Below, piece by piece: positions 4,584-52,651 of a stretch of 64,000 nucleotides of DNA (position 1 is its first letter; the number at the start of each line of letters is the position of its first letter). The notes below the pieces were generated by a model. The model saw only the letters and a program-made list of their open reading frames with translations. It was not told the DNA's origin and ran no database searches. Source of the stretch: Oscillospiraceae bacterium (GTDB taxonomy: Bacteria > Bacillota > Clostridia > Oscillospirales > Ruminococcaceae); contig JAUNSK010000004.1 of the NCBI GenBank assembly GCA_030539275.1, positions 1 to 64,000 of the forward strand, given 5' to 3'. A program made the position numbers and the translations under genes.

Positions 4584-6416
4584 TTATATATTAAGGGGAT
4601 GATTCTGCAGTTCATATAAAGCTCTGTTGATAATATAATCGCTTTTCCCGCCGCGTACAGATTCTGCTTTTACAATTGCTTCTTTGATCACGGCTGATTT
4701 TTCTGAGTCTGTCAGAGGAAAACTGTATAACACATCAATTGTTTTACCGTCAAAGGTGTGTTTGCTTTCATTAAGCAGTACATACAAAAAATATCTTGGA
4801 TACAGATCTTTAAAGAGCTGCGGTGAACACATGGAAGCATTGTCAGCCAGAATATTGACAACATTTGTACTTGCACAGTATTCACTTGCATATCCTGCGA
4901 ATCTGACTGCTGCAGCTCTGATACGATCTGAATCACTACTACTGCAGCTTTGTGACAGATGGATAAGTGATGCGCAGCAATCTTCTATCTCCTGAGTATA
5001 TTGTGCTTTTTCTTTCAGATATTCACTTTTCTTATCGTCATCTTTTATAACAGATGAAATTATTTTCGAGACCGGAGAATTAATCTTTCTTTCTATATCT
5101 GCAAGCCTGCCTATTCGGTTAGTATTAGTGAGAAAATCCAGTATGTTCTGAGGCAGCTCAGAAAAGAGTCTGAGCCAAGGACCGTATGAACTGACCATGG
5201 TCCTGTATGAAGTATAATAACACCCGTTAAGCTTGACATATCGCATATTATGGATCGGCACAAGTGCGGTTTTTGTGTCAGCATACATATCATCATCCAG
5301 TTCACTGTATGCTGTATCAGGATCTTCTGAAAGTGCAAGAATAATCCTCGACGACAAGAAATACTTATTTCGTGAATAAAGACGCCTGATAAGATCCCTG
5401 TATTCCGGTTCTTCATTGTCAAACAGATTTCTTATCAGTATATTATTCAGATCTATGCTGTATCCCATACGGCTGATAAAAATATCATCCGCATCCGTTT
5501 TATTTGAAAGCATATTATTATTTCTTGTTTTGTTTTCTCTGATAAACTCAGTAACCACAGAACTTTTTGATTTCGCAAAAAACGGCTCATAGCTGTCCTT
5601 GAAATTTTCCGAAAGCTTCCTGAAGATCGGAGCAGCTTCATCAGGATTAAGCTCAGCGATCGCTGATAATGCAGCTTTTTTTATTATGCCTTTCTGAGTT
5701 TTGTACATATCTATCAGAAGTTCTGTATTTGATCTGCTGCAGGCAAGTGCCTCAACGGCTGCTGCTCTTATTTCTTCAGGTATATTTTCATTCTTCGCAA
5801 GAGCAGTATACCAGTCGTTTTCATCAGATCCTGCAAGCGTTCTTACACATCTGACTATATTGCCGTACGATTGTGGATTTCCTGAATCAAGTGATGATTT
5901 CAACATCGGTACTATTGCGCAACCGTAATAGGAGAGAAGCAGCTGTGCAGACTCCGGCATTTTCTTTGCATAAAGCGACTGGATAAATGCGTATAGTACA
6001 CGCGGATCATCGCTCAGAGCACGACTGCCGATGTTATCAATAAATTTGACTGCTCCGCTTTTTATGTAGTCTGCATATTGTGAAACAGCACAGTATGATA
6101 CTTCACCATATGGATCTGTTCTGACTGCTGAATCTGCACCTTCATGTGTTTCACTGCTGTCCGTGTACGATCCCTGAACAACTGCAATTGCATCTGCAAG
6201 GGCAATGCACTCGGTGATCTTTTCACTTGGTTTTTCACAGGTCAGAAGTTCTCTGCAGATCGAATATAATTTTGCAAGAGGCTTGCTCTGAGCGGCTTCA
6301 CTGCCCATTGCCTCGACTGCCTTAACCAGACGGAAATCTTCCTTTACCGAGTCAGTTCCTGCCGCTGCACAGGCATAAAGACGTTCTCTTAAGCTGTAAA
6401 ATATTGAAATGTCCAT
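4584..6416 (-). CDS. Helical-repeat (HEAT-like) protein of the MoxR operon
   Basis: A 610-residue protein made almost wholly of amphipathic helices with repeated units such as IPEEIRAAAVEALACS and IKKAALSAIAELNPDEA, the look of a HEAT or Armadillo solenoid. I chose the ATG at 6416 (MDISIF) because AAAGGA lies just before it; an in-frame ATG 63 bases upstream has no such site and would overlap the preceding gene. No enzyme motif, signal peptide or membrane segment is seen. In related clusters a large helical protein of this kind (often DUF5691) occupies the same position, so a scaffold or client-binding role is inferred. Confidence 0.7.
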   Translation of the reverse strand: MDISIFYSLRERLYACAAAGTDSVKEDFRLVKAVEAMGSEAAQSKPLAKLYSICRELLTCEKPSEKITECIALADAIAVVQGSYTDSSETHEGADSAVRTDPYGEVSYCAVSQYADYIKSGAVKFIDNIGSRALSDDPRVLYAFIQSLYAKKMPESAQLLLSYYGCAIVPMLKSSLDSGNPQSYGNIVRCVRTLAGSDENDWYTALAKNENIPEEIRAAAVEALACSRSNTELLIDMYKTQKGIIKKAALSAIAELNPDEAAPIFRKLSENFKDSYEPFFAKSKSSVVTEFIRENKTRNNNMLSNKTDADDIFISRMGYSIDLNNILIRNLFDNEEPEYRDLIRRLYSRNKYFLSSRIILALSEDPDTAYSELDDDMYADTKTALVPIHNMRYVKLNGCYYTSYRTMVSSYGPWLRLFSELPQNILDFLTNTNRIGRLADIERKINSPVSKIISSVIKDDDKKSEYLKEKAQYTQEIEDCCASLIHLSQSCSSSDSDRIRAAAVRFAGYASEYCASTNVVNILADNASMCSPQLFKDLYPRYFLYVLLNESKHTFDGKTIDVLYSFPLTDSEKSAVIKEAIVKAESVRGGKSDYIINRALYELQNHPLNI

Positions 6417-33091: not shown

Positions 33092-36000
33092 TCAGGTCCA
33101 TATGCTTTTTACTATAAGATCAGTTATATCAAATTTTTTATTAAAACAGACATATCCTATCAATTCTTCCTGAAAAGCATGATAATTTTGTCCCAGGTCA
33201 TATTCAAAGGTGAAACAGCCGTATTTCTCACTCTTTCTGAAATATATGTCCTGTCTTCTCATATCTCCACACCAGTCATATTCTTTGCAGTAATCACTAA
33301 AATGTTCATCAATATAATCACATGCCTTTTCTTCCAGATCATCTGTATTTTGCTTGAATGCTGTTACAAATTCCTTATCAAAGTTCTGGAATACTTCTTT
33401 TTCTGTATACCCTTCAAAACGAATATAAAGATCCTGATCATTATTATTTTTTAATTTTATACAGACGTATTGCTGTTTATTAATATATTTTTCTGCTTCC
33501 CATAAAGTAATAAGAGCTTGTCTGTCTTCTTCATTCAGTACTCCAATATCAGATGCCGGAGTCCCGTTTATGGTATAATCATCCGGACATTCTTCGAATG
33601 AAGAATCGTCTATATCTGTAAGACTCTCAGGTATTATAAGCGTTTTAAGACCTGAACATCCGTAAAACGCCTTTTCACCTATGCTCTGACATCCTTCTGC
33701 AATCGTAACAGTTTCAAGGCCTTCACACTTATAAAATACACATCTATTGATTTTTTTTACACTTCCGGGTATATTTACAGCTGAGAGGTTTTTACAGGAA
33801 TAAAATGCACTATCGCCGATATCTGTGCAGCTGTCAGGAATACCAGCATACGTTAATTCATTGCACCCGTTAAATGCATAGCTGCCGATACTGGTAAAGC
33901 CATCAGGCAACTTGATGGATGTAACGGATGAGTTACTGAATGATTCTTTGCCGATATCTATTAAACTATCTGAAAGCTTAATGTTTTTAATTCCGCTTGC
34001 GAAGAATGCCCCATAGGGGATACTTGTTACGTGATCCGGAATAATTAATGAACTAAGACTTTTACAATGGCGAAATGATTCCACTCCGATACTGCAAAGA
34101 GTATCAGGAAGAGACACACTGACAAGACTTGTGCATTCATAAAATGTATAATCATTTATTCTTTCAACGCCATCAGGAATTATTACTTTTTTAATATATG
34201 AACAGTTTTTAAATGCACCTTTCTCAATTTCTCTTACGGTCGGAGGAATTATTACATCATTTTGGTTTTCACAGGGACAGAAGATAAGTTTTGTTTTATC
34301 TTTGTTATACAGAACCCCATCAACGCTGCAGTAGTTCATATTCTCGTCACTTACATTAACACTCTCAAGTTCATGACATGCCTCAAACGCATCTGCTGCA
34401 ATATTCTTTACACTTGCGGGAATACTTACTGATTTAAGACTACGGCATGACCAGAATGCATTACCGGCTATACTTAATACGCCGTCAGAAATGGTTATAC
34501 TCTGAAGACTTTGACACCATCCAAAAGCATTTGCTTCAATACACTTCACAGTATCTGGGATAAAAACTGATGCAAGTTTTTCACACCTATAGAATGCATA
34601 TGCACTTATTATGCATACTCCATGAGATATTTTTACTTCCTTAAGTTCTCTGAAGTTCAGAAATGCTCCTTTTTCTATAATACTTACACTTTCAGGTATA
34701 CAGATGGAACTCTTTTTCTGATCTATGCAGCTCACAAGCATGGATTTATTTTTACTGAAAAGAAATCCATCTTCAAAGCAAAAGTTAGTATTGTCAGGAT
34801 GGATCTTTATTTCAGTAAGATTACTGCAGCCTGAAAATGCATCTCCTTCTATATAACTTGTGTTCTTAGGTATATTAATGCACCTGAGCGATTCACAATT
34901 TTCAAATGCATAACCTTCTATCCTGATTATGCTGTCCGGAAGAGTTACCGTTTCAAGACTTTTACAACCGGAAAACATTGAGTTGCTTAAGTACTTTAAT
35001 CCGTTTTTAATAATAAGATCTTCAAGCTGTGTACAATCTGAGAATGCGTCTTTCCCGATGTTTTTAAGACTTCCCGGAATGGTAATATCATAAAGAGATT
35101 CACACCATTTAAATGCTTCATCTCCAATACTGATTAAACCCTCAGACAATGTTACAGTCTCAAGGCCACTGCTCTCTTTAAATGCTTCTTTACCGACTTC
35201 AGTCACTACAGATGGAATTATAACACTTGACAGACGAGAATTTTTAAAAGCTCCATTTTCTATTGATGTTACAGGAATTCCATTAACATTCGGACAAATG
35301 TCCAGGTCAGATGCTTCATAACTGCATTCTATGATGGATGCCTTTGAGCCTCTGATGCGGTATTTGTACTCATTATTGTTATTACCTTTCCATCCGGTCT
35401 CATTTTCTTCATCTTCCTGCATCTTCTGACTCTTCTGAGTATTATTAATGTTTCTGCTATTATTTTTATATTCAGTAAATACAGCACGTATTTCTTCGTT
35501 ATCAAAAATATATGTATACCCGATAAATGTGTCAATATTGTTCCTGGTAATAATATAATCTGATGAAATCAGCTTACGTGCGCTTTCCTGATCATTATTT
35601 TTAACAATATCCATTACTATATCATTTATACTATTGTTTACATAAAATTCTGCGCATCTTATATCTGAACAAAGCATATGGAGCACAAGATCAGTTTTTA
35701 AGCTGCCGATATCCTTAAAATAATATTTTTCTATAAACAGCTCAAATATTTCTGACATATCTGTTTTTTCATCAATATCGATACTATATGTAAATCCGTT
35801 TTTTCTGAGTTTATAATAAATTTTTCTGATGCCCGAAGTATTTTTGAGAGCATATTTTCCAACATATGAAATACTGTCAGGCAGTGTTAAACTTGTCATA
35901 TTCCTTGAATTATAAAACGCCATATCAGCAATTTTTCTGATCCCGTCAGGAATTACGACATCACCTGTACAGCTATCACCGTTTATAACGATAGAATTAA

Positions 36001-36436
36001 TAATAACAAGGGGATCTTGTGATTTTTTTTTATCTAACCACGGTGTTTCTGCAAAAGCGTAACATCCTGTTTTGGTCACAGTCCCAGAGATCACGACATC
36101 AGAAAGATCTGTACAGCAGCAGAAAGCTTCATAACCTATTTCAGTTACGCCCTCCGGAATTTTTACCTGAGATAAGCTGCTGCAGCCATAAAACGCTTTT
36201 TCACCTATTCTGATTAAAGAGTCAGGCAACTTAACATTTTTAAGATTTGTGCAGTTTGAGAAAGCTGCAGTTTCAATATACTCAACATTATCCGGAATAG
36301 TAATATCTGTAAGACTCACGCAGTCTGCAAAAGCGTTCGTTCCTATTGTTGTGACGCCATCCGGAATAACAACATCTGATACCGCAGAATCAGCTGTATA
36401 TCTGCTTAGAATACCGTCTGATATTTCAAAACTCAT
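33092..36436 (-). CDS. BspA-like leucine-rich repeat (LRR_5) protein
   Basis: An 1114-residue protein with about 25-30 units of the BspA/LRR_5 type, for example IPDGVTTIGTNAFADCVSLT. The repeats occupy about 1-225 and 355-985, split by a non-repeat helical insert (about 225-355) that ends in a polar linker (NNTQKSQKMQEDEENE). Units near 560 and 720 are spaced by longer DGFLF/DGVLY loops. The C-terminal 125 residues form a separate alpha/beta domain I do not know. No signal peptide, sorting motif or membrane helix is present, which is unusual for this family of mostly secreted binding proteins. GAGGTGAACATAT precedes the ATG. Confidence 0.85.
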   Translation of the reverse strand: MSFEISDGILSRYTADSAVSDVVIPDGVTTIGTNAFADCVSLTDITIPDNVEYIETAAFSNCTNLKNVKLPDSLIRIGEKAFYGCSSLSQVKIPEGVTEIGYEAFCCCTDLSDVVISGTVTKTGCYAFAETPWLDKKKSQDPLVIINSIVINGDSCTGDVVIPDGIRKIADMAFYNSRNMTSLTLPDSISYVGKYALKNTSGIRKIYYKLRKNGFTYSIDIDEKTDMSEIFELFIEKYYFKDIGSLKTDLVLHMLCSDIRCAEFYVNNSINDIVMDIVKNNDQESARKLISSDYIITRNNIDTFIGYTYIFDNEEIRAVFTEYKNNSRNINNTQKSQKMQEDEENETGWKGNNNNEYKYRIRGSKASIIECSYEASDLDICPNVNGIPVTSIENGAFKNSRLSSVIIPSVVTEVGKEAFKESSGLETVTLSEGLISIGDEAFKWCESLYDITIPGSLKNIGKDAFSDCTQLEDLIIKNGLKYLSNSMFSGCKSLETVTLPDSIIRIEGYAFENCESLRCINIPKNTSYIEGDAFSGCSNLTEIKIHPDNTNFCFEDGFLFSKNKSMLVSCIDQKKSSICIPESVSIIEKGAFLNFRELKEVKISHGVCIISAYAFYRCEKLASVFIPDTVKCIEANAFGWCQSLQSITISDGVLSIAGNAFWSCRSLKSVSIPASVKNIAADAFEACHELESVNVSDENMNYCSVDGVLYNKDKTKLIFCPCENQNDVIIPPTVREIEKGAFKNCSYIKKVIIPDGVERINDYTFYECTSLVSVSLPDTLCSIGVESFRHCKSLSSLIIPDHVTSIPYGAFFASGIKNIKLSDSLIDIGKESFSNSSVTSIKLPDGFTSIGSYAFNGCNELTYAGIPDSCTDIGDSAFYSCKNLSAVNIPGSVKKINRCVFYKCEGLETVTIAEGCQSIGEKAFYGCSGLKTLIIPESLTDIDDSSFEECPDDYTINGTPASDIGVLNEEDRQALITLWEAEKYINKQQYVCIKLKNNNDQDLYIRFEGYTEKEVFQNFDKEFVTAFKQNTDDLEEKACDYIDEHFSDYCKEYDWCGDMRRQDIYFRKSEKYGCFTFEYDLGQNYHAFQEELIGYVCFNKKFDITDLIVKSIWT

Positions 36437-37194: not shown

Positions 37195-38097
37195 TTATTC
37201 ATACAGATATCCGTACTGTCTTGTATTTGTGCCTGCTATAACCTGCTGAAGAGTAGGTCCGTCCAGAATACTGATTATTCCGTCACGGGTAATATCTGCG
37301 GCACCGTCACGGTATTTTTTATTGTATTCAACAGTTGCCTCATGCATCTGAATTCTGAACAGCTCAGTCTGGTCTTTAGAGTCTATAAATGTATCTCCGT
37401 TTACATCGCCGACCATCATAGGTCTCTGAACGTAATCTACATATCTGTGTCCGTGTACATTGAGATCATTTATATTAGCTGAGTTGATCCAGTTGATTTT
37501 ACAGTTACCATCTGCATCACAGTCTGCATACTGTATTGTGTTATCACGTACACCGGTTATAAAAATGCTGAAGCCACCGTTGTCATAGAATTTTAAAACA
37601 TCACCTATTCTCGGTGTATATGCTGTGCCGTCATCATACTTTATTGCGTTTGATACACGACTTAAATTACACTGAATAAATGAGTCTGTCTCAAAATAAT
37701 CTGATTGTACCTTTGAAGCAAAACCAGCACTCTTTCTTAAGCTGTATGTAGAAATTGCATAGTATCCGAAAATACCCAGCTGATTACCTGAAGAATCATA
37801 TCTCATACCAGATGAGCAAAGGAAATCAGGAGTATAATAGTTATAGGTGCTGCTTGGTGCAGAAACAGAACGGTTTGCATTGCCGCCGGCCCAGTAACTT
37901 GAATTTGTGTATACCATACTCTCATGTCTTACGAAATCAGACATATGCTGTGGCAGCATAGCAGTTCTCTGGTTCAGAAATGTAACATTAGTTCCTTGTG
38001 TTGCCGGTATCTCAGCAGCACTGATTGATGGTACTGTCAGTGAAGCCGCAAAAACAGATGCACACAAAATTGACAAAACACGTTTTTTTATTTTCAT
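37195..38097 (-). CDS. Secreted dockerin protein with an inactive papain-like domain, copy 1
   Basis: A 300-residue secreted protein: signal peptide 1-27 (KKRVLSILCASVFAAS, cut near SISA), a CHAP/NlpC-like domain about 85-225, and a type I dockerin at 228-292 with two calcium loops (DVNGDTFID and DITRDGIIS). Against the homologue at 51.7 kb the catalytic Cys is Ser (S123 in RKSAGF) and the catalytic His is Phe (F176 in GGFSIF). The fold seems kept but the protease or amidase should be dead. The start is ATG at 38097 behind GGGGAAATTA. It has no clear promoter of its own and follows copy 2 after a hairpin, so it may depend on read-through. Confidence 0.85.
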   Translation of the reverse strand: MKIKKRVLSILCASVFAASLTVPSISAAEIPATQGTNVTFLNQRTAMLPQHMSDFVRHESMVYTNSSYWAGGNANRSVSAPSSTYNYYTPDFLCSSGMRYDSSGNQLGIFGYYAISTYSLRKSAGFASKVQSDYFETDSFIQCNLSRVSNAIKYDDGTAYTPRIGDVLKFYDNGGFSIFITGVRDNTIQYADCDADGNCKINWINSANINDLNVHGHRYVDYVQRPMMVGDVNGDTFIDSKDQTELFRIQMHEATVEYNKKYRDGAADITRDGIISILDGPTLQQVIAGTNTRQYGYLYE

Positions 38098-38153
38098 TTT
38101 TAATTTCCCCATTCAATTTATTTTTTAGCAAACTTAAATAAGCAATGATAAAG

Positions 38154-38233: not shown

Positions 38234-39136
38234 TTATTCGTACAGATATCCGTACTGTCTTGTATTTGTGCCTGCTATTACCTGCTGAAGAGTAGGTCCG
38301 TCAAGAATACTGATTATTCCGTCACGGGTAATATCTGCGGCAGCATCACGGTATTTTCTATTGTATACAACAGTTGGCTCATTCAGCTGAATATAGAACA
38401 GCTCTGTCTGGTCTTTTGCATCAATAAATGTATCTCCGTTTACATCGCCAACCATCATAGGTCTCTGAACATAATCTACATATCTGTGTCCGTGTACATT
38501 GAGATCACTCATATTAGCTGTGTTGCTCCAATTGATCTTGCAGTTACCGTCTGCATCACAGTCAACATATGAAATTGTGCTGCCATTTACATTAGTAATA
38601 AAAATACTGAAGCCTCCGTTGTCATAAAACTTTATAACATCACCTATTCTTGGTGTATATGTTGTGTTGTCATCAAACTTTATTCTGTTTGATGAACGGC
38701 TTAAATTACACTGAATAAATGAATCTGTCTGAAAATAATCTGCCTGTAACTTTGAAGCAAAACCAGCACTTCTTCTCATGCTGTATGTTGAAATTGCATA
38801 GTATCCGAAAACACCAAGCTGATTACCTGATGAATCATATCTCATGCCAGATGAGCAAAGGAAATCAGGAGTATAATAGTTATATGTACTGCTTGGTGAT
38901 GAAGTCCAATGGTTTACGTTTCCGCCAGCCCAGTATTTTGAATTTGGGTATTTCTGATATTCAGCTCTTACGAAATCAGTCATATTCTGCGGCATCATAC
39001 AAGTTTTCTGTGACTGTAATGTAACAGAAACTCCTGGTGTTACCGGGATATCAGCAGCGCTGATTGATGGAACTGCCATTGAAGCAGCAAAAATTGATGC
39101 GCACAAAATTGATAAAACACGTTTTCTCATTTTCAT
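38234..39136 (-). CDS. Secreted dockerin protein with an inactive papain-like domain, copy 2
   Basis: A 300-residue tandem paralog of the next gene, the same length and alignable without gaps. Signal peptide 1-27, papain-like domain 85-225, dockerin 228-292. It carries the same losses: S123 in RRSAGF and F176 in GGFSIF. Differences cluster in about 30-80, the N-terminal part of the mature protein, which may bind the partner. The start is ATG at 39136; a longer reading lacks a ribosome site. The promoter is at 39197. The dockerin implies docking onto a cohesin scaffold outside the cell. Confidence 0.85.
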   Translation of the reverse strand: MKMRKRVLSILCASIFAASMAVPSISAADIPVTPGVSVTLQSQKTCMMPQNMTDFVRAEYQKYPNSKYWAGGNVNHWTSSPSSTYNYYTPDFLCSSGMRYDSSGNQLGVFGYYAISTYSMRRSAGFASKLQADYFQTDSFIQCNLSRSSNRIKFDDNTTYTPRIGDVIKFYDNGGFSIFITNVNGSTISYVDCDADGNCKINWSNTANMSDLNVHGHRYVDYVQRPMMVGDVNGDTFIDAKDQTELFYIQLNEPTVVYNRKYRDAAADITRDGIISILDGPTLQQVIAGTNTRQYGYLYE

Positions 39137-39196
39137 TGTTATTTCCCCATTCATTATAATTTTAGCATTCCTGTAATTAGCAATGCTAATGTAATT

Positions 39197-39225
39197 ATTA
39201 TACTGGCGCATTTTGTAAAAGTCAA
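39197..39225 (-). promoter_or_regulatory. Promoter of the dockerin gene pair
   Basis: TTGACT and TATAAT with a 17-base spacer. The early transcript can form a hairpin from TTAGCATT and AATGCTAA (39162-39189). The dockerin gene at 52.6 kb has the same -35 context and a similar hairpin. Confidence 0.7.
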
Positions 39226-39402
39226 GATTTTTTTGCATATATTGTACGAATAAACAATTTTAAACAAGAAAAAATATAAATATTAAACCAATTATTACAT
39301 TATAGTCCGCATATTAACATCTGATTTCTAAATATTTATGCTTCTTCTTAAATTTATTAACAAAATAAATATTTATAATGGTAATCTGTTATTTTAGTTC
39401 AA

Positions 39403-40993: not shown

Positions 40994-41012
40994 ATCATCA
41001 CCTCTGGTAAAT

Positions 41013-41061
41013 ATTATAACATAAATCAATAAAAAATGCAACCTGTACAGGTTGCATTTTT
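41013..41061 (-). promoter_or_regulatory. satD promoter with a palindromic operator
   Basis: Minus-strand -35 TTGCAT and -10 TATAAT, 17-base spacer. The -35 box is the edge of a perfect 30-base palindrome at 41032-41061 (half site AAAAATGCAACCTGT). A third TGCAACC half-site lies upstream, near 41080. The palindrome may also terminate transcripts from the ABC gene upstream. Confidence 0.65.
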
Positions 41062-41140
41062 GAAAGGTAATATATTTTGGTTGCATATAATACAAGAAAA
41101 ACAATACTTTTCATGTATATGCCGATGAGAATAACATAAA

Positions 41141-43408
41141 TCAATTCCTGATATAACTTAAATAAAGTCCTCCATTATCAACAAGTTCCTGATGTGTACC
41201 TGACTCAGCAACATGCCCATTCTCAATAACGTAAATATAATCACAGTTTTTTATAGTATTTAATCTGTGTGCAATTATAATACATGTCTTTTCAGATGAA
41301 AGATTATCTATCGTTTCTTTTATACTTTTTTCAGATATAGTATCAAGATTACTTGTTGCCTCATCCATAATCAGTATATCAGGATCTCTTAACAATGCTC
41401 TGGCAATTGCAAGACGCTGTCTCTGACCACCGGACAGATTGTTGCCGTTCTCCTCAATAACTGTCTCATAGCCCATAGGCAGCTTGTTTATAAACTCATC
41501 AGCCAGGCACAGCCTGCAAATATTTTCTATTTGTTCATTATCAATATTCTGATTTCCCATTCTAAGGTTATTGTATATTGTATCTGAAAAAAGAAATATA
41601 CTCTGAGAGATATATGCTACCTTTTTTCTTATTACTGAGGATGAATAATTACTGATATCTTTTCCTCCTATCAGAACTGAACCTTTTTCCGGTTCATAAA
41701 AAGACATTAATAACTTCATCGCAGTAGTCTTTCCGCATCCGCTTTCTCCGACTATCGCAGTTTTACTGCCTTTTCTGAAGGTTAATGAGAGATCATCAAG
41801 TACAAGATCTCTGTTAGAATATCTGAAATACACATCTTTAAATTCAATATCGCCTTTCAGATCAGGATTATTATCCTGGTTTTTATCAATCTCACATTCA
41901 ACATCCAGTATATCATTTAATCTCTCTGATGCTACTATCGCTGTCTGTATCTGAGGCTGAAGATTAATGAGATTCTGAACCGGTTCCAGAAAAAAGCTGA
42001 TCAGGTAATAGAAAATAAATAAATCAGAAAGCGATATTATATTTTTAACACAAAGGCTTGCCCCTGACCACAACAAAATGACTGTTCCAATAGATGAACC
42101 TGCCGAAACCAGAGATTCCTGGATAATATATATCATAGAACCTTTTACATTTTTATCAGCAAAGGCCTGGTATACTGACCTCGTTGTGTTTTTTGCCTCA
42201 TTTTCATATTGAAATGATTTGATAGTTTCGATGCCGTCAATTGATTCTTTCAGATAAGAAGTAACTTTTGCATTCTGCTCCATTATTTCATGATTTACTG
42301 ATTTTATCGGATTTTTAAATGCAAAAACAATAACAGCATAAATCAGCATTATTAAAACGGTAATTATGAATAACTCACGATTAATAAAGTACAAAATAAA
42401 ACCGCATGAGACAGCCATTATTGTATCAAGTATCAGCGACAAGGCAGCAGACGAAACAGCGTCCCTGATTTTATTAGTATCATTAAATCTGGACATGTAT
42501 TCGCCTGTTTTTCGAGTTCCATAGAATCCGATCGGTAAGTCAAGCAAATGATCGTAATAATTTAGTGTCAGCGGTATATCTACTGATTTTGCAGTAATAG
42601 TGAGAAAATAGCCTCTCAGGATCTGTATTAAAATCTTTATCAGATACAGGCAGATTATTGAAATACAGACTGTTGTCAGATTGGCATAAATAATACTGAA
42701 CTTTGATTCTATACTTTTAAGAACCTGCATAAATCTGCTTGTACCATCATACCCCATACCTGAAGCAAGGCCCATATTTGCAGAATGTCCCGGGTTTTCA
42801 ATATCTGAGATAACATACTGAAATATTACCGAACTGCTGACATTAATAAAAATTATTATCAATGACAAAAAGAATACTGCTGCAAGAAGTTTTTTCTGTG
42901 ATAATATGTACTTAAAATACTTTGTGAAAGAGCCTTTTCTTTCGTCTTTTTTTTCAAACTTATCATCCGGCTCAAATGTTATTATTTGATCCTGCCACAA
43001 TAGAATAAACTTATCTTCAGACATAGATGTGATTTTATCTTCAGCAGGATCACCTATAATCAGTTTCCTGTTCTTTACAGCATAAACAACAATAAAATGT
43101 TCATAACCTTCTTCATTTATTATTCTTGCTATGAACGGAAACTTTATTTCATTATTATTTATCCCTTCAAGGAGTTCACCATAATCGCCCTCAAGCCCTT
43201 CCGACTCAAGCCCGATTTCTTTTGCACCGGTAATAATTCCATATATGTTTGCCCCCATGTTATCAACTTTTATCAGGCTGCGACACTTTGCTATAGTCAG
43301 TTTTGAGCCATAAAATTCGGATATCATGGAGAGACAGGCTGCACCGCAGTCTTTTTCATCATGTTGCTGTATATGTGGATATTTCAATTTTTCACCGCCT
43401 GTATGCAT
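41141..43408 (-). CDS. Peptidase C39 ABC exporter for a double-glycine peptide
   Basis: A 755-residue three-domain exporter. The C39 peptidase (1-150) has C21 in HDEKDCGAAC, H104 in GYEHFIVVY and D120 in IIGDPAED. Five to six membrane helices span about 170-450. The ATPase has GESGCGKTT, LSGGQRQRLAIARAL and ILIMDEATSNLD. It cuts leaders after Gly-Gly and exports the core peptide. An ATG six bases after the lipoprotein stop has no ribosome site; TTG at 43387 (LKYPHI) behind GGCGGTGA is a good alternative start. The likely substrate is the 66-residue peptide encoded 0.8 kb upstream in the same operon. Confidence 0.92.
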   Translation of the reverse strand: MHTGGEKLKYPHIQQHDEKDCGAACLSMISEFYGSKLTIAKCRSLIKVDNMGANIYGIITGAKEIGLESEGLEGDYGELLEGINNNEIKFPFIARIINEEGYEHFIVVYAVKNRKLIIGDPAEDKITSMSEDKFILLWQDQIITFEPDDKFEKKDERKGSFTKYFKYILSQKKLLAAVFFLSLIIIFINVSSSVIFQYVISDIENPGHSANMGLASGMGYDGTSRFMQVLKSIESKFSIIYANLTTVCISIICLYLIKILIQILRGYFLTITAKSVDIPLTLNYYDHLLDLPIGFYGTRKTGEYMSRFNDTNKIRDAVSSAALSLILDTIMAVSCGFILYFINRELFIITVLIMLIYAVIVFAFKNPIKSVNHEIMEQNAKVTSYLKESIDGIETIKSFQYENEAKNTTRSVYQAFADKNVKGSMIYIIQESLVSAGSSIGTVILLWSGASLCVKNIISLSDLFIFYYLISFFLEPVQNLINLQPQIQTAIVASERLNDILDVECEIDKNQDNNPDLKGDIEFKDVYFRYSNRDLVLDDLSLTFRKGSKTAIVGESGCGKTTAMKLLMSFYEPEKGSVLIGGKDISNYSSSVIRKKVAYISQSIFLFSDTIYNNLRMGNQNIDNEQIENICRLCLADEFINKLPMGYETVIEENGNNLSGGQRQRLAIARALLRDPDILIMDEATSNLDTISEKSIKETIDNLSSEKTCIIIAHRLNTIKNCDYIYVIENGHVAESGTHQELVDNGGLYLSYIRN

Positions 43409-43414
43409 AGATTA

Positions 43415-44164
43415 TTAAGTCTCATCTAATGATATCTCTTTATAATCATCTGGTATTGAGTATTCTATTTTTTCACTGGTATTTTCAAATTTTTTAATTT
43501 CGACCCTGACAAAACTGTTATTATCATTCTCATTGATAAAATATTTTTCAATAACGCCATCTTTAAAATATATATAATAATTATAGCCTGAGTTTTTATC
43601 AATATAATTCAGCCTGTAATACCGGGCACCGTCGATTTTACATGAGCATGCAGATTCAGGATCTATTTTGCCCAGTATATCATAAACATTAAGCAGTGTA
43701 TATTCATACACATCATCGCCTTTTTCTTCAATTTCTGACTGAATCTCCTCATTCATTTTATAGTACTGCCTGCCGTCAGGAAAAATATAATACTGCGTAT
43801 TGTCCTGAGTGAAATATATATCTGAACTGTTGTCAGGATAATATGTTTCAACATACATCTGATCTTTTTCTATAGTGGCAGATACGCTGTACTCATCTTC
43901 AATATTGATCGTATTGTTTAATTCGTAATAATCCAGTTCATACAACAGGGTTCCATTATTAATTATTTTACTATATTTTTCTATTAAGGAATTATCTATC
44001 TGAGCTTGCGTTATATCAGTTTCACCAAATAAATTATCTGCGCTTTCAGAAGCAGTGACAACATTTTCTATACTTTCGTTTGCAGAATATTCATTATTGC
44101 TGCATCCTACATTCAAAAATAAAAAATTGAGCAGACACAAAAAAACAGCTATTTTCTTCTTCAC
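43415..44164 (-). CDS. Lipoprotein of the peptide cassette, possible immunity or partner
   Basis: A 249-residue protein with a lipoprotein signal (KKKIAVFLCLLNFLFLNVGC, Cys as the modified residue; the -3 position is unusual). The mature part is acidic and beta-rich with many Tyr, ending EYSIPDDYKEI, a shape like LolA/DUF6612-type lipoproteins. It lies between precursor and exporter, where immunity proteins are often coded, but immunity is inference. It could also chaperone or sense the peptide. Confidence 0.65.
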   Translation of the reverse strand: MKKKIAVFLCLLNFLFLNVGCSNNEYSANESIENVVTASESADNLFGETDITQAQIDNSLIEKYSKIINNGTLLYELDYYELNNTINIEDEYSVSATIEKDQMYVETYYPDNSSDIYFTQDNTQYYIFPDGRQYYKMNEEIQSEIEEKGDDVYEYTLLNVYDILGKIDPESACSCKIDGARYYRLNYIDKNSGYNYYIYFKDGVIEKYFINENDNNSFVRVEIKKFENTSEKIEYSIPDDYKEISLDET

Positions 44165-44180
44165 TTTTATATCCTTTCAT

Positions 44181-44226
44181 AAAAAACTCTCCCTTGGGCG
44201 ATAAGCCTTACACACTCAAGGGAGAG
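44181..44226 (-). terminator. Partial terminator between the peptide gene and the lipoprotein gene
   Basis: A ten-base perfect stem, CTCTCCCTTG and CAAGGGAGAG, with a 20-base loop and six T on the minus strand. It would give much precursor message and less for the lipoprotein and exporter. Confidence 0.8.
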
Positions 44227-44245
44227 AATTATTATTAACTGATTT

Positions 44246-44446
44246 TTATTTGTATATATATGTCTTAAACAAATGTGATGAATAAGGTGATGCACCATAC
44301 TTGCTTACATGTGACTCCTTGCATCCGCTGATTGAGCAATGCCACCAATATGTAGTTTTAAATAAACCATTCTGTCTTGCACAGAGTGCATCTGATCTGT
44401 GTCCACCATTAGATTTTCTTGTTTCTTCTACTGTCATTTTCTTCAC
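44246..44446 (-). CDS. Double-glycine leader peptide (bacteriocin or signal precursor)
   Basis: A 66-residue precursor starting with GTG behind AGGAGGATTATCGC. Residues 1-15, MKKMTVEETRKSNGG, form a typical double-glycine leader for C39 exporters. The 51-residue core is basic and aromatic, with C22, C37 and C42, five His and WWHC at 34-37. No modification enzyme gene is in the operon, so it is likely exported unmodified, perhaps with one disulfide. It resembles class II bacteriocins in plan, but lacks the YGNG motif. A peptide pheromone is the alternative. Confidence 0.8.
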   Translation of the reverse strand: MKKMTVEETRKSNGGHRSDALCARQNGLFKTTYWWHCSISGCKESHVSKYGASPYSSHLFKTYIYK

Positions 44447-44501
44447 GCGATAATCCTCCTAAAATAAAATAATGTAAGAAATTTAAACAACTTCTGACAT
44501 T

Positions 44502-44530
44502 ATTATATAGTATTTATATGTAGTTGTCAA
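44502..44530 (-). promoter_or_regulatory. Promoter of the peptide cassette
   Basis: Consensus TTGACA and TATAAT with a 17-base spacer, 56 bases before the GTG. Just upstream (about 44545-44585) TATATAAAAAATC and GATTTTTTAGTTATATA form an inverted repeat that could bind a regulator. Confidence 0.75.
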
Positions 44531-44709
44531 TATAGAAATGCAAATTTGGCTATATAAAAAATCGAGATTTTTTAGTTATATATGACTAATGGAATGCGTA
44601 TTATATGGCATCTAATGTTAATTGCGCCCATAAATAATTATATTTATATTAACAACAGTATTTCTTCCAACAACAGTTTGAAAGTCAGGAGCCTAATGAT
44701 CTGACAGCA

Positions 44710-44745
44710 AAAATAATGCAGCCTTTTCAGGCTGCATCAAAAAAA
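44710..44745 (-). terminator. Terminator after the amino-acid ABC genes
   Basis: Stem GATGCAGCC and GGCTGCATT with a short loop and ATTTTTG after it on the minus strand. Confidence 0.8.
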
Positions 44746-44802
44746 TATTTAACTTGATAATAAAACAGTAACAGTTTACACGTCAGAATGTGATAATGTA
44801 TT

Positions 44803-45543
44803 TTACAGAAGCTTTGAGAAAAATTCCTGAAGGCGTCCGTTTTTCGGGTTATTGAAAACCTCCTGAGGCGTATCGTCTTCAGCAACAACACCATTGTCAA
44901 TAAATATTATACGACTTGCAACTTCTCTTGCAAATCCCATTTCGTGTGTAACACAGACCATTGTAATCCCTGTAGCAGCAAGCTCTTTCATAACATCAAG
45001 TACTTCCCCTACCATTTCCGGGTCAAGAGCGGATGTAGGTTCGTCAAAAAATATGACCTCCGGATTCATAGCAAGAGCGCGGCAGATCGCTACACGCTGT
45101 TTCTGACCGCCTGACAGCTGATTAGGATAACTCGAGACCTTTGATTCAAGACCTACTCTCCTGAGTAAGTCTATCGCCTGTGCCTCGGCCTCAGCCTTTG
45201 GAATTTTCTTAAGTTTAATAGGTGCAATAGTAAGATTATCAAGAATAGTCAGATGAGGAAAGAGATTAAAGTGCTGGAACACCATCATCATTTTCTGACG
45301 CTGTTTATTCAGATCAGTCTTTGGATCAGTTATTTCAACATCATCAAGAAATATTTTACCTTCTGTAGGAGTTTCAAGAAGATTCAGACATCTTAAGAAT
45401 GTAGATTTTCCGCAGCCGGATGGTCCCAGAATAACTACTACCTCGCCCTTATGGATATCGAGTGAAATCCCGTTAAGAACATCAAGCTTTCCAAAAGATT
45501 TTTTAAGATTTTCTACATGGATTATAACATTATCTTGCATCAT
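44803..45543 (-). CDS. Polar amino-acid ABC transporter ATPase (GlnQ-like)
   Basis: A 246-residue ATPase. Walker A is GPSGCGKST, signature [16 protein letters not shown], Walker B VIFFDEP. The length and the [17 protein letters not shown] style are those of polar amino-acid importers. ATG at 45543 follows AAAGGAGACTTAAAA and overlaps the end of the permease gene by 14 bases. It powers the fused binding-protein/permease encoded just upstream. Confidence 0.93.
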
Positions 45544-47050
45544 TTTTAAGTCTCCTTTCAAGCTTGCCAACGAGCATACTCAGGAAAATAACAATAATAA
45601 GATATATCAGAGCAACAGCAATCAGCGGCATAAAGGCATCATAGGTACGGCTTCTGATAAGGTCACCGCCTCTGGTAAGGTCACGGATACCGATATAGCC
45701 GGAAATTGAAGTTTCTTTCAGGAGAACAATAAACTCATTGCCCAGAGCCGGCAGTATATTCTTAATAGCCTGAGGAAGAATGAAATACAGCATAGTTCTT
45801 ACATAATTGAATCCCAGGCTTCGTCCGGCCTCAAACTGTCCTTCATCTATAGATGAAAGTCCTGAGCGTACGATCTCAGCGATATATGCGGAAGAATTAA
45901 GACCAAAAGCAATAGTCGCAACAAGAACAGCATCTATATTTGAACTTGCAAAAACAACATAATAGATTATGAGAAGCTGTATCATGGCTGGCGTACCACG
46001 GATAATGGTAATATATAATTTGCAGATACTGTTAAGGAACCTGAACTTTTTATTCATATCACAGGAAAACCTGATTATTGCAAGAATAAATCCTCCTGCC
46101 ACACCTATAAGTACAGCAAAAAATGATATCCTGAGTGTGGTTAAAATACCATTGGTTACAAATTTCCAGCGTGACTCAGCGATAAAGTTTGTATAGAAAC
46201 TATCTTTGAAGTCAGCAATGAATGAAGCGCCGTCACTTTCTCCGTTTCTGATAATTACGACCTGATGTGAAGTTGTATACGACTGGGTAAAGTTAATATT
46301 TTTAAGTCTGTCCTCTGTAACAGTCATACCGGCAACGCCAATATCTGCTTTACCAGATGCAACAGCTGTGATAATTGAATCAAATTCCATATCCTGAATG
46401 ACAAGTTCCATTCCCAGAATGTCTGCGACGGCCTGTATCATTTCAGCGTCGATGCCGATAATTCTGCCGTCCTCTATGTACTCATAAGGCTCAAAAGCAG
46501 CATTAGTGGCCATTGTAAGTGTACCGTTTGTGCGTTTGGTGTCTTCAGGTGAAATATATGGACTGCTGCCAGTATTATCACCGATATAGTTTAAAATAAT
46601 TTTATCAAGAGTACCGTTTTCTTTGAGCTGAGAAATAGCCCCATTTACCTTGTCAAGAAGTTCATCGTTGCCCTTTGCAATACATGCAGCATATTCTTCA
46701 GTCACGAAATCCTCCGGCAAAATTGAAAGATCCTTATTAAGTTCAACATATTTTTTTGCAGGCTCACTGTCTATAATAACACAGTCTACCTTACCCTGTT
46801 TAAGTGCCATAACAGCATCGGCACCTTTGTTGAACTGTTTAATGACAGAACCCTGCTCAGTATAGTCACTCGCATATATGTCTCCTGTCGTGCCCATCTG
46901 AGTACCTATAGTTTTTCCCGGCAGATCATCAATTTCTGCTACGTCTGAAGCAGGGATATCATTTTTCCCGCACCCGCACAATGCAGCCATAATGACCATC
47001 ATCAGCACAAAGCAAGTACTGATCTTTTTAAAGCTGATAAAATTACTCAT
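45530..47050 (-). CDS. Fused substrate-binding protein and permease of an amino-acid ABC importer
   Basis: A 506-residue protein. A signal-anchor with lipobox-like LCGCG (1-27) leads to about 240 residues of type 3 solute-binding sequence, then five helices with the permease EAA loop [20 protein letters not shown]. The binding lobes are in reversed order: the usual C-terminal lobe ([29 protein letters not shown]) comes first at about 44-155, and the usual N-terminal lobe ([23 protein letters not shown]) at about 178-270, next to the membrane. It probably imports a polar amino acid such as glutamine, Arg or Cys; which one is unknown. GGGAGGAAAGA precedes the ATG. Confidence 0.88.
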
Positions 47051-51718: not shown

Positions 51719-52651
51719 TTACTGATAAAGATATCCATAGTAATCAGTTGTATTATTATTTAAGGCTCTTGTAAGAAGCAGTAAGTCATACGAATCTACC
51801 TTTCCGCTGCCGTCAATATCACAGGCAACACTGCGATAGTTCAGATTACATTTTGCAACTGTAGGATTGCCGACTATCATCTTTCCGAGCTCTGTAACAT
51901 CTGCCTGATCTATTATAGTATCTCCGGTAACATCGCCAACCATCATTGGTCTGCCTACAAAGTCTATTCTTTTGTGACCGTTAACATTCAGGTTATCCAG
52001 ATATGCTGTCTGGTTCCACTTGATGATGCAATGACCATCAGAGTTGCAATCTGCATATATGATACGGTTTCCGTTGACTGATGTAATAAAAATACTATGA
52101 CCTGCAACGCCGTCATTAAATCTTAGATGATCACCGATTCTTGGTTCATACTTTGTTCCATCCATATACTGTATTTCGTTTCCAACACGTTTAAGTCCTA
52201 CCTGAACAGATGAATCTGTGCCAAAATAATCTGATTGTAATTTCTCTGCAAATCCATAGCACTGAGTTGAAGAACCACTCTGATCATATGAACCATATGA
52301 ACCATACGGCATAATGTCTGAAGCATAATATCCAAACACCTGGCCAAGATTATAATTAATACTTGCTTTTAATCTCTGATCAGGTTTATACTTATTATCA
52401 TTTGAATGATTGCTGCATGGAACAGTAATATAGCTGTCCGGATTGCCGCCAGCCCAATATGTTCCGTTAGGAAATTTTACTTTTTCTGACAAAAGAAAAT
52501 AATACATATTTTGTGAATCCATTGCGACATATTGTGGTGTTGATGTAACTTTTACAGGGTTTGTAACTTCTGCAAAAGCACTTGTTGTTGGTGCTGTTAT
52601 TGCAACAGCAACAACAGAGGCGAGTAGTGAGATCAAAATCCGTTTTTTCAT
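51719..52651 (-). CDS. Secreted CHAP/NlpC-like protein with a dockerin (active-site residues kept)
   Basis: A 310-residue secreted protein: signal peptide 1-27, a papain-like domain about 95-235 with candidate catalytic C131 (QCYGFAEKL) and H185 (AGHSIFIT), and a type I dockerin 237-303 (DVTGDTIID and DIDGSGKVD). It is a clear homologue of the two genes at 37-39 kb, which lack both catalytic residues. It may cut peptide bonds in the cell wall or in other proteins while attached to a scaffold. GGAGAAGTTATAA precedes the ATG. Confidence 0.85.
   Translation of the reverse strand: MKKRILISLLASVVAVAITAPTTSAFAEVTNPVKVTSTPQYVAMDSQNMYYFLLSEKVKFPNGTYWAGGNPDSYITVPCSNHSNDNKYKPDQRLKASINYNLGQVFGYYASDIMPYGSYGSYDQSGSSTQCYGFAEKLQSDYFGTDSSVQVGLKRVGNEIQYMDGTKYEPRIGDHLRFNDGVAGHSIFITSVNGNRIIYADCNSDGHCIIKWNQTAYLDNLNVNGHKRIDFVGRPMMVGDVTGDTIIDQADVTELGKMIVGNPTVAKCNLNYRSVACDIDGSGKVDSYDLLLLTRALNNNTTDYYGYLYQ

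Follow-up and report, generated by a model that had tools for sequence, protein, structure and literature searches.

A predicted double-glycine peptide export locus of an Oscillospiraceae bacterium belongs to an exporter clade in which many loci encode peptides with zinc-finger-like spacing

What kind of peptide is made and exported by a locus whose leader and exporter look familiar and whose core resembles no known class? This question is raised by positions 41141 to 44530 of a 64,000-nucleotide stretch of contig JAUNSK010000004.1 from an Oscillospiraceae bacterium (assembly GCA_030539275.1; the whole stretch is called the window hereafter), which contain a short precursor gene, a lipoprotein gene and a gene for a C39 peptidase-containing ABC exporter. 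The reading that we favour, with a probability of about 0.6, is that the locus exports one short cationic class II-like peptide, that the cores encoded at sister loci are in part probably stapled by a metal, and that the window encodes a divergent member of this set. The larger find would then be the exporter clade with its zinc-finger-like peptides, and the family of exported peptides defined by this leader and this exporter clade is apparently undescribed.

The initial annotation had described a precursor, leader, hairpin, lipoprotein and C39 exporter, and all of these are present, on the minus strand, in the order it gave. It had missed a promoter, a terminator-like hairpin after the exporter, and the zinc-finger-like cores of the leader and exporter relatives. 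Read along the minus strand, the order is promoter, precursor, hairpin with T6, lipoprotein, C39 exporter and second hairpin:

44502..44530, minus strand: promoter TTGACA-17-TATAAT, 12/12 consensus sigma-70 positions, about 55 bases 5' of the precursor start
44454..44460, minus strand: ribosome binding site AGGAGGA, 7 bases 5' of the GTG start (direct sequence reading)
44246..44446, minus strand: precursor gene, 66 amino acids plus stop, GTG start
44402..44446, minus strand: 15-residue double-glycine leader (M)KKMTVEETRKSNGG
44249..44401, minus strand: 51-residue core, net charge +5, with C22, C37-x4-C42 and His 16, 36, 46 and 58
44181..44226, minus strand: intrinsic-terminator-like hairpin in the gap between precursor and lipoprotein, perfect 10-bp stem plus T6
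43415..44164, minus strand: lipoprotein, 249 amino acids, GTG start, GAAAGGA upstream, no family above curated cut-off
41141..43408, minus strand: C39 peptidase-containing ABC exporter, 755 amino acids
41032..41061, minus strand: terminator-like hairpin 3' of the exporter

The exporter passes the TIGR01193 model at 595 bits against a cut-off of 524 and matches Pfam Peptidase_C39 at 108 bits; it remains under the curated cut-off of the NHLP-type exporter model TIGR03796 (422.9 against 853.3 bits). Residues C21, H104 and D120, already read as intact, are invariant across five aligned C39 domains, as is Q15. When its N-terminal part was compared with 396 family genomes, matches at E up to 1e-12 were found in 32, its own included. 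The four nearest other exporters (E below 1e-50), as well as an exporter fragment in a fifth genome, have one or two adjoining genes of 63-79 residues with the same type of 15-residue leader. These five loci recur as L127, L120, L128, L130 and L161 in a scan of genome contigs with the C39 alignment, from which the best 80 of 245 relatives were kept, and they are counted once.

An exporter tree of 79 rows, comprising the window and 78 of the 80 loci (two matched stretches shorter than 110 residues were left out), puts the window exporter in a 23-row clade with support of 95/92. Its 22 other members (L108-L127, L134, L135) are labelled Ruminococcus in nine cases, Lachnospiraceae in five and otherwise in eight. 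A gene with the same type of leader is present at 20 of the 22; as to the two exceptions, the L116 record starts 564 bases before the exporter and the L112 record stops inside it. In 14 of these 20 loci no more than 300 bases separate the end of the nearest precursor from a C39 match downstream of it, and precursors lie downstream of the exporter in L118, L122 and L134. In L117 and L121 a large lipoprotein gene intervenes and the precursor lies 2.3 kb upstream, an order that resembles that of the window. A held-out search of 394 genomes of the order and 245 of the class, with flanks of at most 1.5 kb beyond which farther precursors would escape, yielded two further near-clade exporters, L204 (E 5e-67) and L205 (4e-60), both with leader precursors and CxxC cores. 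Among 21 weaker exporters from the same search (L206-L226), two have a leader match (L222, L225), and neither core is of the CxxC type.

Several observations on exporters and their carriers may be recorded here. L109 and L123 are labelled Alistipes within a clade otherwise labelled Bacillota, and almost the same precursor is encoded in L123 and in the Ruminococcus loci L124 and L126; these labels reflect either misbinned contigs or recent transfer. In L101 (6458-6915, the same locus as L161, from R. albus KH2T6) the alignable part of the exporter is limited to two pieces, query residues 7-63 and 654-749, downstream of a precursor; the exporter of R. albus AR67 (L119) is 765 residues long, and the precursor there is nearly identical to the L101/L161 one. 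Two precursors with a different Cys-containing core lie near exporters outside the clade (L141, 3026-3259; L171, 1863). The genome of the window itself holds two more C39-type matches (G000:C3:246069-246437 and G000:C6:239490-239858), the second in a frame that contains stops.

The leader gives the second line of evidence. With a leave-one-out matrix the window leader scores 40.7, the runner-up among the 2,717 start-codon 15-mers of the window reaching 13.1, and on this score it belongs with the short-leader, zinc-finger-like set; it also ends in GG ahead of a short core, as in class II double-glycine peptides. The 27 leaders that went into the matrix come from these very loci, which makes it circular in that sense; the leave-one-out score and a reversed-sequence control, which gave 1 match at the scan threshold per 734,432 reversed bases of the loci, were meant as independent tests. 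A simple leader pattern, applied to the 28 loci longer than 4 kb, gave seven matches, six of them at the first five relative loci and one elsewhere.

What these leaders precede was surveyed at 42 loci (L108-L148, L174), of which 39 gave 70 different precursors; this set is broader than the clade and includes some precursors that resemble other bacteriocins (L144, L146, L147). CxxC occurs in 57 of the 70 cores (shuffled cores: mean 10.2, maximum 18), and the fuller pattern C-x2,4-C-x12-H-x3,5-H in 28 cores from 10 of the 39 loci (shuffles: mean 0.12, maximum 2 in 500 rounds). A His exactly 13 positions after the second Cys is found in 33 of the 57 CxxC cores, compared with a mean of 3.7 and a maximum of 11 over 1,000 rounds of shuffling, and a second His peak lies at +18 (26 of the 57). 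After removal of cores more than about 50% identical, the +13 count is 24/45 (shuffle mean 2.8, maximum 11). Genes of one array are not mutually independent, and the His-offset count over all CxxC cores, together with the held-out exporters, was meant as an independent test. Within the clade, 7 of 22 loci show the classical zinc-finger spacing C-x2-C-x12-H-x3-5-H, and 17 of 22 have a CxxC or C2H2 core.

Some loci carry tandem arrays of precursors: ten in L122 (6111-8390), nine of them with the C2H2 pattern, five in L118 (7404-8404) and eight in L108 (54-2427). The L118 and L122 arrays follow the exporter gene and the L108 array precedes it, and most of their cores are zinc-finger-like. Among the ten L122 genes identity is 0.77 in the leaders and 0.39 in the cores; on sequence comparison, the cores are hypervariable across related loci. 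In L050 (about 5650-5845) an apparently decayed second precursor, its leader end without double glycine and with stops in frame (by eye), lies beside an intact copy. Cores of an R. albus type, without Cys and with the common stretch SGSYKEHWWSG, occur in L119 (4608-4832), L127 (4495-4707) and L161 (909), and may be a second type of core within this clade of exporters.

To these counts can be added fold evidence from 32 sister peptides (A3), which were picked for their C2H2-like pattern, so that Pfam, PDB and model results on them merely confirm that choice. At E up to 0.1, zf-C2H2_4 matches 12 and zf-C2H2 11 of the 32 (best zf-C2H2 E 7.8e-4); many other Pfam models, mostly zinc-binding, match a few members, some equally or slightly better, and NCBIfam gave weak, mixed matches. 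A profile of A3 matched 311 PDB sequences at E up to 1, and the top of the 60 rows shown consists of C2H2 zinc-finger proteins, the best whole-chain E being 1.4e-26 (summed across repeats) and the best single finger among the alignments shown 0.0027. One L122 precursor was modelled as beta-beta-alpha with pLDDT 84-87 across residues 21-50, and Foldseek places C2H2 fingers of Kaiso and CTCF at the head of its matches for this model (TM about 0.55). Spacing, profile and model together suggest that these sister peptides are probably zinc fingers, with metal binding as a prediction. Many sister cores would then fold round a metal ion in the C2H2 shape, and zinc could take the place of disulfides in an anaerobic habitat.

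A number of results weigh against this reading, either for the set or for the window. Three clade loci deviate from the pattern, L119 and L127 being without any Cys pair and L134 having C-x4-C. The Pfam matches of single members are weak, as are the Foldseek matches of the L122 model (best E 0.15, so that all are worse than 0.001). This type of leader also occurs outside the clade, where peptides near exporters score up to 30 (L144, L147, L152). No immunity gene common to the loci appeared in the gene lists, in which no systematic search was made. As for the window core itself, it fails every zinc-finger pattern tried (CxxC, C2H2 spacing) and carries C-x4-C instead, it comes 20th of 201 when scored together with 200 shuffled versions of itself by a profile of the other cores, which does not set it apart from them, and it models poorly (pLDDT 54.9). 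The A3 profile, moreover, misses the window precursor in its own genome. An assignment of the window core to the zinc fingers by pattern, profile or structure found no support.

The earlier remark that the core matches no familiar bacteriocin class is supported: its 51 residues, with three Cys, four His and a net charge of +5, match no Pfam or NCBIfam family (Pfam at E up to 1, zf-C2H2 included), and the YGNGV motif of class IIa, pediocin-like bacteriocins is absent. As judged from sequence, membership of the window peptide in the family is a matter of leader, exporter and layout, not of the core. If the zinc-finger reading is true, core-only searches would find nothing here because leader and exporter are conserved while the core is not. 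The window core would be a divergent version whose C-x4-C pair and several His might, on weak support, bind a metal with another spacing. It is also quite conceivable, if somewhat less so than the reading given at the outset, that the window peptide is an ordinary and perhaps disulfide-bonded class II bacteriocin which has just its exporter and leader in common with the zinc-finger-like set. This alternative overlaps with our favoured explanation and denies just the metal part for the window; many class II bacteriocins contain disulfides, and the core fits no metal pattern and bears no recognisable relation to the rest of the cores. Three Cys would leave one unpaired per monomer, however, and the tree places the window exporter among those that stand beside CxxC-type peptides.

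Homologue searches with the precursor confirmed none in genome contigs or viral contigs and found none in plasmids. In the search of 297 family genomes, matches at E 0.0014-0.05 turned up in 25 genomes other than its own; these matches were treated as chance, as the exporter query found nothing of the C39 type in L003-L032, with flanks of up to 1.5 kb, and ABC-ATPase regions alone in L010. Of three genus-level matches in G010, the one opened (L003) lies opposite a kinase-like frame. The initial annotation had taken precursor homologues without any C39 exporter as evidence against the system. On this point the answer is partial: a profile of the zinc-finger-type precursors matched 15 places in 13 of the 297 family genomes, the top three of which (in two genomes) are at exporter loci, while among the other 12 the six that were opened have neither a leader score above 10 nor a C2H2 pattern, and the profile is a weak test for divergent members, as the window's own precursor escapes it. 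A phage origin was rejected, since a pattern-based search of viral contigs confirmed no exporter relative, and so was a plasmid origin, all 387 plasmid records with an exporter match falling short of 60% identity and the 15 rows shown not exceeding 38.5%.

The lipoprotein bears a lipobox-like stretch, LFLNVGCSN (read by eye). Its Pfam matches, Flavodoxin_3 and OCRE, are weak and below cut-off, and the best PDB row (E 0.093) offers no convincing relative. No relatives were found at E below 5 across the 80 exporter loci, and the weak ones present in 2 of 296 other family genomes have no exporter match within 1.5 kb, one lying among housekeeping-looking genes and the other at a contig start (by eye). 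A co-occurrence of core and lipoprotein homologues was not borne out, and the lipoprotein was rejected as a fixed partner of the system, no relatives having been found at these exporter loci and some sister loci encoding quite different lipoproteins. From the earlier suggestion of a class II-like bacteriocin with lipoprotein immunity, the class II-like export unit stands, while lipoprotein immunity is not supported, no relatives having been found at those 80 loci; the window lipoprotein is the sole candidate for a cognate immunity protein. Sister loci have other neighbours: L117, L121, L134 and L135 encode larger lipoproteins near the exporter, 713-756 residues long and equipped with a solute-binding domain, a lipoprotein without clear family in L128 is the same protein as in L050, and genes for ABC ATPases lie near the system in L118 and L119. 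To give these lipoproteins or ABC ATPases a role in immunity or reception would be a guess.

The four large lipoproteins bear on two further explanations. They could bind the peptide, as would be expected if it were a pheromone-like signal telling kin of the cell density and the lipoprotein were the outside part of a receptor, and peptide pheromones also use short double-glycine leaders. We regard a signal as unlikely, as neither a histidine kinase nor a response regulator was seen among the 16 window proteins scanned with Pfam, a locus with as many as ten different cores (L122) does not suggest one signal, and the window lipoprotein is not conserved. The same solute-binding domains in L117, L121, L134 and L135, and the Cys/His-rich cores with zinc-finger spacing, would also suit an extracellular metallophore for zinc or another metal, retrieved by such lipoproteins of the sister loci. 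This seems very improbable to us: cores that vary while the metal knuckle stays constant point to selection on the remaining surface, no such lipoprotein stood out near the exporter at other loci (in gene lists with domains unscanned), and a Cys pair is lacking in the L119 and L127 cores.

The layout of the unit also recurs. In the window, the hairpin arms 44217-44226 and 44187-44196 are fully complementary across 10 bp and are followed by T6 at 44186-44181, and the promoter (44530-44502) is the sole 12/12 match among the matches listed for 41000-45000. A hairpin with a T-run (-12 kcal/mol or lower, within 150 bases after the last precursor) is present at 13 of 21 loci with the window and at 12 of 20 without it; in a shuffle control of 30 rounds, in which two-base blocks were permuted and dinucleotides kept only roughly, the mean was 0.07 and the maximum 1 of 21 loci. 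This recurrence supports a shared control by which the precursor would be transcribed more than the genes behind it.

Export of a class II-like peptide, the reading that we prefer, could then proceed as follows. A strong promoter would drive the precursor, and the hairpin, to judge from its anatomy and recurrence, would pass part of the transcription into the lipoprotein and exporter genes, so that precursor is made in excess. The C39 domain would cut after Gly15 and the same protein would export the 51-residue core, as its intact motifs and the pairing of leader and exporter suggest. Outside the cell, the peptide would most likely act as a class II-like bacteriocin against close relatives. 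The description of the locus as a minimal double-glycine export unit was upheld, no modification enzyme or kinase having been found among the 16 window proteins scanned with Pfam, a scan that left out smaller frames and the rest of the window.

The unit is somewhat richer in AT than its surroundings (GC 0.331, against 0.375 for the window) and is flanked, according to Pfam, by an amino-acid-type ABC transporter on one side and by SatD and DUF3307 genes on the other. Elsewhere in the window, a single frame joins a solute-binding protein to an ABC permease (45533-47050), three similar secreted proteins have dockerin-like C-terminal regions (37198-38112, 38234-39238 and 51719-52651, the middle one under the Pfam cut-off), and a BspA-type leucine-rich repeat protein of 1,114 residues is encoded at 33095-36436. 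The dockerin genes, together with the relatives of the unit, suggest that the organism is a Ruminococcus.

How does this system compare with known ones? With class II double-glycine bacteriocins, which use TIGR01193-type exporters, it shares a short cationic precursor, a GG leader, a single protein expected to cut and export, and the lack of a modification enzyme among the scanned neighbours; it differs from them in its 15-residue leader, the absence of YGNGV or any family match and of a recognised immunity gene, and in the zinc-finger spacing of the sister cores. Many sister cores have the spacing C-x2-C-x12-H-x3-5-H of eukaryotic C2H2 fingers such as ZNF568, Kaiso and CTCF, and one modelled member has their beta-beta-alpha form, a shape known above all from plant and animal proteins that bind DNA. 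Unlike these, the sister peptides are bacterial and consist of a single small finger behind an export leader, and the window core does not fit. Ros/MucR is likewise a bacterial C2H2-type finger; Ros is a transcriptional regulator with a 9-residue spacer instead of the 12 of eukaryotic fingers (PMC9779718), whereas the sister peptides have a spacer of 12 and are predicted to be exported. The class II lanthipeptides of Ruminococcus flavefaciens also comprise several GG-type precursors in related hosts (PMC13289728), and are distinguished by their lanthionine synthetase, of which there is none in the 16 scanned window proteins, the related loci not having been scanned for one.

In the open-licence literature we found nothing that links zinc fingers or zinc binding with bacteriocins or double-glycine peptides, which does not by itself prove novelty. 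In their accessible portions, PMC9372549 (the term only in its reference list) and PMC13252029 are not about such peptides. The main text of the Hungate1000 bacteriocin survey (PMC13289728) does not contain the word zinc, and neither does that of the IIBacFinder atlas in its preview form (PMC12648078), although the atlas may list some such precursors.

We tentatively propose, at odds slightly short of even, that rumen and gut Clostridia have made of the C2H2 zinc finger an exported weapon or signal: a new, zinc-stapled class of double-glycine peptides, varied in tandem arrays behind a constant leader and served by one exporter clade, of which the window would hold a version with another ligand spacing. 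If so, there are bacteria that export zinc fingers standing on their own, in diversified peptide sets and with the 12-residue spacer of the eukaryotic type, and these would offer a new scaffold for narrow-spectrum antimicrobials whose oxygen-free folding suits the rumen and the gut.

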